From Nitrososphaeraceae archaeon (GTDB lineage: Archaea > Thermoproteota > Nitrososphaeria > Nitrososphaerales > Nitrososphaeraceae), in NCBI GenBank assembly GCA_009377575.1, contig WHTU01000021.1:1-51598 (forward strand): DNA of 51,598 nucleotides. Direction: 5' to 3'. Each line of letters begins with the position of its first letter. Position 1 is the stretch's first letter. The notes beneath the pieces were generated by a model that worked only from the letters and a program-made list of their open reading frames with translations, was not told the origin of the DNA and did no database searches. Of the stretch, positions 1 through 30,856 are shown piece by piece. Both the position numbers and the translations under genes were made by a program.

Positions 1-54
1 CAGCGCGGACGCCTCCTAAGCGTCAGGCCGAGGGTTCAAATCCCTCCGAGCCCG
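1..54 (+). tRNA. tRNA-Arg(CCT), 5' truncated by the window edge
   Basis: The 3' part of a tRNA is visible. The anticodon stem GACGC (8-12) pairs with GCGTC (20-24) around loop CTCCTAA, giving anticodon CCT (15-17), which reads AGG (Arg). A T-arm GAGGG-TTCAAAT-CCCTC follows, then the acceptor strand CGAGCCC (47-53) and discriminator G54. No CCA is encoded. The D arm and 5' acceptor strand lie outside the window. Confidence 0.9.
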
Positions 55-511: not shown

Positions 512-1507
512 TTAAATTTGCGATTTGGGATAACCTGGTTTTACAAGATCTGCAATGTCGACCCAACATTTAGCAATCCTGTCCATAGAGTAGACGCAGT
601 TAAGAATCGATATGTGGGGGTCAGGCGAGCCCTTAGTAGATTTCTCTTTGATGGAAGCGGATAGGTTTGAGAATTTTAGGTACATTCTTACTACATCCTC
701 GCTCAGCAAATTGTCCTTTGCGATAAATGCGCTTATAGATCTATGTTGCATATTGTCAACGATCATGCCTGCTTCTACGATTTCATTTCCGAATCCAGTT
801 CCCCATAATTTAGGCACTGATGACGAGAATTCTGAGACATAATCACCAGCACTTTCGAGATGGCTTGCCGCTACTCTGTAGTCGAGTATGTCAATATTAC
901 TCAAATTAAGCTTGCGTGCAATCCGCTGGTTTAGCATAGCGCTTCTAATCAAACGGACCAGCAAGAAGTACTGTCTATCAATTTCGTCGTCTCTTCTTAT
1001 GATGAGCTTAATAATCTTTGTATCTTTGTTCACAATAGCCTTAAGTCCATCCCTCATCATTCCTTTGATGATTGCATTCATTCTACGAAGGATTTTGGCT
1101 GCATCTAGTGAACTCACGTCTATAAGGAATTGAAAGTTAATGTTGAGACTATCCTCGTCAACGATTTCAAGTCCGACAAGTTTACCTGTGGCAGTTAGGA
1201 TTTTCTCGCGATCTTCGTAATCTATGGGAGCCCTAGCTTTAATCCTGATGTTATCATAGCCTAACAAATAAGCTCCAAATAGTTGATTGATGAGAATATC
1301 TACAACCCTGGCGGGGTAATCAATACCAAACCCTCTCATGATCCCATTTCTCTCCTTTGAGGGAAGTATGGCAATTGAATTATCATTGCTAAGTTCCATT
1401 AGAATTGTATCACCTTTCTTAAGTTGATTCTGGCGGACCCAATTCGCTGGCAGTGATACAAGCATACTACTTCCTATTTTCTGAAGACGACGGGCATAGG
1501 AGGCCAT
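512..1507 (-). CDS. AbrB-PhoU fusion regulator (phosphate uptake regulator-like)
   Basis: This 331-residue protein starts with an AbrB/SpoVT-type swapped-hairpin DNA-binding segment (about residues 5-50, with RRLQKIGSSMLVSLP and a following KKGD turn). The rest is mostly helical and resembles the PhoU domain of archaeal phosphate uptake regulators. Family members are thought to act as cytoplasmic transcriptional or signalling proteins tied to phosphate. The ATG at 1505-1507 is followed upstream by a 16-bp AT palindrome, and the divergent neighbour is the CoA biosynthesis operon. Control of that operon by this protein is inference. No Pst or Phn transport genes lie nearby. Confidence 0.82.
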   Translation of the reverse strand: MASYARRLQKIGSSMLVSLPANWVRQNQLKKGDTILMELSNDNSIAILPSKERNGIMRGFGIDYPARVVDILINQLFGAYLLGYDNIRIKARAPIDYEDREKILTATGKLVGLEIVDEDSLNINFQFLIDVSSLDAAKILRRMNAIIKGMMRDGLKAIVNKDTKIIKLIIRRDDEIDRQYFLLVRLIRSAMLNQRIARKLNLSNIDILDYRVAASHLESAGDYVSEFSSSVPKLWGTGFGNEIVEAGMIVDNMQHRSISAFIAKDNLLSEDVVRMYLKFSNLSASIKEKSTKGSPDPHISILNCVYSMDRIAKCWVDIADLVKPGYPKSQI

Positions 1508-25228: not shown

Positions 25229-26752
25229 TCAAACGGTAGGCTTTGAATCATCGAATCTGAATATCTTATTAAAGTAATCTGCCTGTTCATGGTTGAGCTC
25301 TTCTGTTTCACCTTCTTGAACGTTTGCTAATTTCTTTGCTAGCTTCTTTTTGTATCCCAATTGCATTTGTCTTGCGATCTGAATGCGTTGAGCCTGAGGC
25401 GAGCCCGCGCCATGCATAGATTCAGTAAGATATCCCACTGCGTTCCTGCCAAGTGTCATATTTTCAATCAACCTCAAAATCCTAACACGATTTTCTGTCG
25501 ACACGCCCTTTCTCCCCTTCAGATATTTTTCAAGCAGAGGCCCAACTTTTGGGCTCTTAAAGTCCTTCTCTGACGGCATAGTAACCATTAAGCCTCCTGC
25601 GATATCCTGTGCTATTCTGCTCAGCTCATAGGGAAATCTAGTGACATTGTGTTTGCAGACGTTAGCAAGCATATCGTCGTTTTGAAAATTACCAGAAGCA
25701 GTCGGTTGGGACTGGTACGACGACGCAATCCCTGCTGCAAAAATAGTCTCATTCAAATGAGTCATTTCAACTAGCTTATCTTTAATATGAGAAGCGTTTG
25801 CAACCCCATTGTAATCAGCGATTGCCGCTGCAGCTCCGATCAAGACATCACCTAAACCAGTCTTACAAACATAGCTCCGTCTATGATAGCATGTAAAGCG
25901 CTCAACAAGCATCGAAGCATACTCAACTTCTCCATCCATGAAAATCCGTTCATTTGGAATAAAAACATCCTTGAAAATTATCATGGCCTCTTGACCAGAG
26001 AACTGTGCATTTCCAGAGTCTATATCTCCGCCTTCCATGCTCCGAGTATCGCATGATTGTCTACCGTAAATGTACGTTATTCCATGAGCATCAACGGGTA
26101 CTGTACCTACGATCGCGTAATCCCGATCTTCAGGTCGCAATCTCATGGTAGGCATAATTGCTATCCAATGTGAATTAATGCATCCAGTCTGATGAGCCTT
26201 CGCTCCCGTCACGTATACACCATTCTCATCTCTTTTTGATATATGGACAAACATATCAGGGTCGTCCTGCTGACTAGGTGAAAGGCTTCGATCACCCTTG
26301 ACGTCAGTCATTGCTCCTCCAATGACCATGTTCTCGAGTTGAACATATTTTATAAATTCCTTGAGTCGAGAATGATACTTAGTGTTATATTTCTTGTCGA
26401 TTTCATACGTAGTGGAATACAAAGAATTCAAGGCGTCCATTCCAACACATCTCTGAAAACAGGTGGCGGTAAGTTGTCCTAATTTTCTCTGCATACGATT
26501 CTGATTGACTAAATCAGCTGCACTTTCAGTAATGTGCAAAAATCTATTCACTCTCGTATTCGAAAGGGACGAATGGACTGATGCAAGCTCCGGTTCTTTC
26601 TGGGCCAACTCATAGGTTTCAGCAACAGCGTTAATTGAAGGCCGTATCATTGGATGATCTACTGGTTCATTTACAAGTTCTCCAAACAAATATACTTCTA
26701 GATTTCGTCCTCTAAGACTCTGTATATATTCCGCCCCACTGCGAATAGGCAT
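25229..26752 (-). CDS. abfD: 4-hydroxybutyryl-CoA dehydratase / vinylacetyl-CoA isomerase
   Basis: This 507-residue flavoprotein dehydrates 4-hydroxybutyryl-CoA to crotonyl-CoA, a key step of the thaumarchaeal 3-hydroxypropionate/4-hydroxybutyrate cycle. The characteristic [4Fe-4S] ligands appear as C98 and C102 in TATCFQRC, and H290 and C296 in CYHRRSYVC. Other family parts are GAKAHQTGCINSHWIAI and SMHGAGSPQAQR. The related 4-hydroxyphenylacetate hydroxylases lack the cluster ligands, so dehydratase is the better call. A TATA box about 31 bases before the ATG implies a leaderless, independently controlled gene. Confidence 0.92.
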   Translation of the reverse strand: MPIRSGAEYIQSLRGRNLEVYLFGELVNEPVDHPMIRPSINAVAETYELAQKEPELASVHSSLSNTRVNRFLHITESAADLVNQNRMQRKLGQLTATCFQRCVGMDALNSLYSTTYEIDKKYNTKYHSRLKEFIKYVQLENMVIGGAMTDVKGDRSLSPSQQDDPDMFVHISKRDENGVYVTGAKAHQTGCINSHWIAIMPTMRLRPEDRDYAIVGTVPVDAHGITYIYGRQSCDTRSMEGGDIDSGNAQFSGQEAMIIFKDVFIPNERIFMDGEVEYASMLVERFTCYHRRSYVCKTGLGDVLIGAAAAIADYNGVANASHIKDKLVEMTHLNETIFAAGIASSYQSQPTASGNFQNDDMLANVCKHNVTRFPYELSRIAQDIAGGLMVTMPSEKDFKSPKVGPLLEKYLKGRKGVSTENRVRILRLIENMTLGRNAVGYLTESMHGAGSPQAQRIQIARQMQLGYKKKLAKKLANVQEGETEELNHEQADYFNKIFRFDDSKPTV

Positions 26753-30718: not shown

Positions 30719-30856
30719 GGGGTCGTAGCGAAGCCAGGGATCGCAACGGGCTCCAGATCTTACATCCCAACCAAAGTAATTGGGCAGAAACCCGTGGATC
30801 AAGGGTTCAATTACTGACACGTGATAGTGCAGGTAGAACATATCCCTTCGGCCCCA
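30719..30856 (+). tRNA. tRNA-Trp(CCA) with two introns
   Basis: Acceptor GGGGTCG (30719-30725) pairs with CGGCCCC (30849-30855), discriminator A30856. The D arm is GCGA-AGCCAGGGA-TCGC. The anticodon stem ACGGG/CCCGT encloses loop CTCCAG|A, anticodon CCA (30753-30755). Intron 1 is predicted at 30757-30789 (33 nt, position 37/38). The T stem AAGGG/CCCTT (30844-30848) is restored only if intron 2 at 30811-30841 (31 nt, position 58/59) is removed, leaving loop TTCAAAT. At intron 2, GTTC pairs with GAAC to form a bulge-helix-bulge centre. The mature tRNA is 74 nt. Confidence 0.88.

Follow-up and report, generated by a model that had tools for sequence, protein, structure and literature searches.

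The locus at 30719-30856 of the window, by which we mean the whole stretch of DNA that was analysed (51,598 nucleotides), carries a tRNA-Trp(CCA) gene interrupted by two introns, one at the canonical position in the anticodon loop and the other in the T loop (Table 1). The window is contig 133 of its host genome, which belongs to a member of the Nitrososphaeraceae, is 3.89 Mb in size and is 99% complete. When both introns are taken out, direct reading of the sequence gives a 74-nt tRNA-Trp in which all four arms pair, namely the acceptor (GGGGTCG/CGGCCCC), the D arm (GCGA/TCGC), the anticodon arm (ACGGG/CCCGT) and the T arm (AAGGG/CCCTT). The isotype, the two introns, their lengths and their positions had been proposed in an initial annotation of this DNA, and direct reading together with family comparison confirms that the observation is real and the coordinates right to the base. 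The boundary of intron 1 has a one-base ambiguity, which leaves the mature product unchanged, and the sole uncertainty in the layout of the gene is one nucleotide at the T-loop junction, which lies at either 58/59 or 59/60.

Table 1. Coordinates of the tRNA-Trp(CCA) gene and its predicted T-loop bulge-helix-bulge (BHB), and of the T-loop intron in tRNA-Glu(CTC); positions refer to the window unless a contig is given.
Feature	Position	Strand	Description
tRNA-Trp(CCA) exon 1	30719..30756	+	positions 1-37: acceptor 5' strand, D arm, anticodon stem 5' strand, CCA anticodon
Intron 1	30757..30789	+	33 nt, canonical position 37/38
Exon 2	30790..30810	+	positions 38-58: anticodon stem 3' strand, variable loop, T stem 5' strand, TTCAA
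Intron 2	30811..30841	+	31 nt, T loop, 58/59 (or 59/60)
Exon 3	30842..30856	+	positions 59-73: T stem 3' strand, acceptor 3' strand, discriminator A
Predicted BHB central helix, 5' strand	30805..30808	+	GTTC (positions 53-56), then 3-nt bulge AA|T
Predicted BHB central helix, 3' strand	30836..30839	+	GAAC, within intron 2, then unpaired AT|A
Intron 2 inner hairpin	30812..30835	+	TACT/GGTA, then second short helix
tRNA-Glu(CTC) T-loop intron	L168, G000:C177 around 801-842	-	also L169, L170, L171, L172

The evidence for this structure comes from the relatives of the host. Exon 1 is present in 58 of the 70 family genomes and is near-invariant among them, and in every one of the 56 loci that are complete, that is, not cut by a contig end, both introns are found (53 distinct sequences, covering 11 of 12 genera). 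The introns vary in sequence and in length (26-48 nt for intron 1 and 23-33 nt for intron 2), their positions never shift, and the exons hardly change. Within the genus, the gene is 100% identical in congener G003 and 96% identical in G001, and in G002 a contig end truncates it. Among named genomes, matches to the exon-1 pattern fall nearly all in assemblies labelled Nitrososphaeraceae, Nitrososphaerales or Thaumarchaeota (Nitrososphaera, Nitrosocosmicus, Nitrosopolaris and the TH-series assemblies), with three more in metagenome-assembled genomes that their submitters labelled Nitrosopumilus or Nitrosopumilales. Judged from the sequences, the two-intron tRNA-Trp goes far beyond chance, being near-identical in congeners and having both introns family-wide, with covariation. 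As a separate observation, a GGGC(T) motif in intron 1 is kept across most of the family (L031-L094) as the remainder of the intron varies, with no pairing partner established.

What is more, the T-loop junction bears the marks of a splice site. The GTTC of positions 53-56 forms four of four standard pairs with a GRAY stretch near the 3' end of intron 2 in all 53 distinct sequences, and this central helix is paired in all 32 sequences of the alignment; moreover, the variants that occur as GRAY (GAAC, GAAT, GGAC and GGAT) are exactly those that wobble allows opposite GTTC. In the same 32-sequence alignment, all eight pairs of the inner helix of intron 2 show changes on both sides, and the covariation is strong, with 64 double-change cells against 26.5 in shuffles. 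The covariation score over the motif is 0.399, compared with 0.192 when shuffled and 0.08-0.12 when slid. A model of the T-loop intron (R1) scores the copy in the window at 39.2 bits. On the 5' side the bulge is three nucleotides long (AA and one further base) and is followed directly by the helix of the intron itself; on the 3' side the bulge is longer than the textbook three nucleotides, with five unpaired bases when the register of the T stem is kept. Intron 2 is therefore predicted to form a BHB with a 4-bp central helix flanked by bulges, and the GTTC/GAAC core that the initial annotation had pointed out is, in this sense, paired family-wide and accompanied by a covarying inner helix.

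The junction at 37/38 is weaker, as had also been claimed. Namely, the central helix of intron 1 sets CTCC against GCAG, with three of four pairs and C34 mismatched. Such a count of three central pairs is found in 40 of the 53 distinct sequences, this one included, and fewer pairs in the rest, down to a single pair of four in some relatives; in 35 of the 53, CTCC stands opposite GAAG. The motif at 37/38, to go by these pairings, is probably a relaxed version of the BHB throughout the family.

The concern that standard scans may miss such a gene proved justified: neither ARAGORN, intron mode included, nor Rfam at gathering thresholds reports the unspliced gene. With both introns removed, ARAGORN calls tRNA-Trp(cca) in 53/53 of the distinct family sequences, and it does so in only one of the 53 when they are left unspliced (intron mode) and likewise in one when intron 1 alone is removed. 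When it is intron 2 alone that is removed, there are no calls (0/53) in no-intron mode, and in intron mode tRNA-Trp is called in all 53, with an intron at about position 37-39. Finders that lack a step for noncanonical introns will call tRNA-Trp missing in Nitrososphaeraceae and so lower the apparent completeness of their genomes. A single-sequence fold of the unspliced precursor showed no signal (z of -0.62), since competing pairings dominate it, and, the fold being uninformative by itself, the case rests on comparison.

Is there another tRNA-Trp gene in this genome? Searching with the exon-1 pattern, allowing up to three mismatches, gave exactly one match in 38 of the 39 family genomes that are at least 90% complete, this genome included, and the reversed control of the pattern gave no matches. 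Among the other tRNAs found with RF00005 in this 99% complete genome there was no convincing tRNA-Trp, and the intact second copy that the initial annotation had named as a ground for abandoning its reading was not found in the genome. One "Trp" call by ARAGORN (L234) was rejected, because the tRNA is of class II, has a long variable arm and contains CCA only inside an intron. On these searches, the gene at 30719-30856 appears to be the only recognisable tRNA-Trp(CCA) gene of the genome. As to the splicing machinery, the genome has one gene for the splicing endonuclease, with PF01974 and PF02778 both on a single open frame of 194 aa whose translation shows the expected Tyr, His and Lys in place, and one RtcB gene; Pfam models turned up no beta subunit of the endonuclease in the genome. 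According to a review (PMC4090602), the endonucleases of Thaumarchaeota are of the alpha2beta2 type, which accompanies noncanonical introns.

We consider it almost certain that 30719-30856 is a single functional tRNA-Trp(CCA) gene with two introns, the predicted endonuclease cutting at both and RtcB joining the exons. Gene structure, conservation, covariation, the single recognisable copy and the endonuclease and ligase genes are what we observe; the actual cuts, their order and the ligation are what we infer, and they would run as follows. In the precursor, the T-arm residues 53-56 (GTTC) would pair with the GAAC that lies at the 3' end of intron 2. Together with the hairpin that the intron would close by itself, this would give a BHB, to be cut by the tRNA splicing endonuclease after A58 and before N59. 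The relaxed motif CTCC/GCAG, with C34 mismatched, would be cut at 37/38, and the RtcB RNA ligase would join the exons into the 74-nt tRNA-Trp.

Could the locus instead be a tRNA-Trp pseudogene in decay, its two insertions random and the functional gene located elsewhere? That ARAGORN and Rfam do not recognise it in unspliced form would fit such a reading. However, no other tRNA-Trp was found in a genome that is nearly complete, and the exons are near-invariant, with introns that keep their position and structure over 11 genera; we regard a pseudogene as highly improbable, and the family-wide conservation already refutes it. Equally improbable, in our judgement, is that the T-loop insertion is no intron at all and is retained as a structural extension of the T arm. 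The insertion does form a conserved hairpin, but retaining it would abolish the T loop needed for contacts with the D loop, and an extension would not need a conserved GRAY that pairs with T-loop bases in BHB geometry; the insertion also drifts freely in length and inner sequence.

A closer relative of the preferred reading keeps the gene and both introns and differs only in placing the T-loop cut at 59/60, so that base 59 would come from the 5' side. By the usual rule, the cut on each side of a BHB follows the second base of the bulge, and this rule fits 58/59. What is more, with a cut at 58/59 the mature T loop reads TTCAAAT, which is that of intron-free relatives. In favour of 59/60, the two ends of the intron are ambiguous in the sequence and the position is among those listed for archaea (PMC4090602); all things considered, we judge it unlikely, at roughly one chance in five.

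The single functional gene with two introns, then, can be set against the sister families. In a family of the same order (f3, six genomes read, L110-L115), tRNA-Trp has one long intron at 37/38 and an uninterrupted T loop. This intron carries TGATGA-type boxes, and a stretch in it, TTGGAGC, is antisense to the anticodon loop, much like the known archaeal C/D guide intron. In a second family, f11, tRNA-Trp is intron-free in the genomes matched, and related families have intron-free T loops with the expected GGTTC[A/G]A[A/G]TCC. Matches of model R1 in f11 (G148, G160, G176, G183 and G159) were put down to chance, there being no tRNA around them when read. Given the uninterrupted T loop of f3 and the intron-free gene of f11, the T-loop intron is best read, in a comparison of few families, as having been acquired on the branch leading to Nitrososphaeraceae. 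The short 37/38 intron would, among the same few families, be a form without the guide, and the remark that, at 33 nt, it is too short to hold a C/D guide RNA is right; C/D boxes are absent from it, and f3 has its long C/D-like intron at this position.

With the T-loop intron model, the tRNA-Glu(CTC) genes of this genome, its three congeners (G001-G003) and G030 were found to have a T-loop intron that matches in kind and position (GGTTCAA...GGAACAA|ATCC). It is possible, though we hold it to be rather doubtful, that a single mobile intron gave rise to the T-loop introns both of tRNA-Trp (in all genera with a readable locus) and of tRNA-Glu(CTC) (in this genus and in one genome from a second genus). 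Its arrival in tRNA-Trp would then date to the ancestor of the Nitrososphaeraceae, on the lineage where the box C/D guide has also gone from the 37/38 intron. If true, this would amount to intron transposition outside Thermoproteales together with loss of a cis-encoded modification guide. ARAGORN calls the tRNA-Glu(CTC) gene with a wrong 3' end. The model also picks out a T-loop intron in an apparent tRNA-Tyr(GTA) elsewhere (L173, G057:C301:6664-6705, minus strand), which has a canonical intron as well and may have a third one in its variable region.

The two-intron gene lets one ask what replaced the guide RNA of the tRNA-Trp intron. Moreover, UGG is decoded by tRNA-Trp only, and every tryptophan tRNA would therefore depend on two splicing events. 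For relaxed BHB recognition the gene offers a clean test system, since the arrangement is fixed throughout a family of soil archaea, some of which are in culture.

The literature already describes introns at many sites in the T arm, tRNAs with several introns and noncanonical thaumarchaeal introns (PMC8450103, PMC4090602, PMC3293823). In particular, the tRNAscan-SE 2.0 paper reports 107 noncanonical introns for Thaumarchaeota and a covariance model dedicated to them (PMC8450103), and intron 2 shares with this class its short length, its location away from 37/38, its predicted BHB and its thaumarchaeal host; the main text of that paper does not name the tRNA-Trp T-loop intron locus, and our literature search found no paper naming it. 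The tRNA-Pro(UGG) of Pyrobaculum islandicum (Thermoproteales), with introns at 25/26, 37/38 and 56/57 (PMC4090602), likewise combines a canonical and a T-arm intron in one gene, but differs in archaeal order, isotype and T-loop position. Archaeal tRNA-Trp genes with a box C/D guide RNA in the 37/38 intron (PMC4090602) have in common with this one the isotype and the canonical intron position, whereas here the intron is only 33 nt long and, on inspection, free of boxes C and D, and a second intron sits in the T loop. The two-intron tRNA-Trp is, in other words, a solid and not an unprecedented case of archaeal tRNA splicing, of a class already published, thaumarchaeal cases included.

Finally, some further features of the window and its genome may be mentioned. 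On the minus strand, a 507-aa ORF at 25229-26752 looks like 4-hydroxybutyryl-CoA dehydratase, which we take to be consistent with an ammonia-oxidising archaeon. A tRNA-Arg(CCT) gene is cut by the contig end at the start of the window (1-54), and a copy of tRNA-Arg(CCT) (L232, G000:C318:23227-23285) carries about 30 nt of extra sequence in the D loop (tgaacaaatgaaaaagtgttcagg...), which is probably a further noncanonical intron. An apparent tRNA-Asn(GTT) (L026, G000:C336:42988-43101, minus strand), which ARAGORN mis-calls as Arg(CCT), has an intron upstream of the anticodon, at about position 26.
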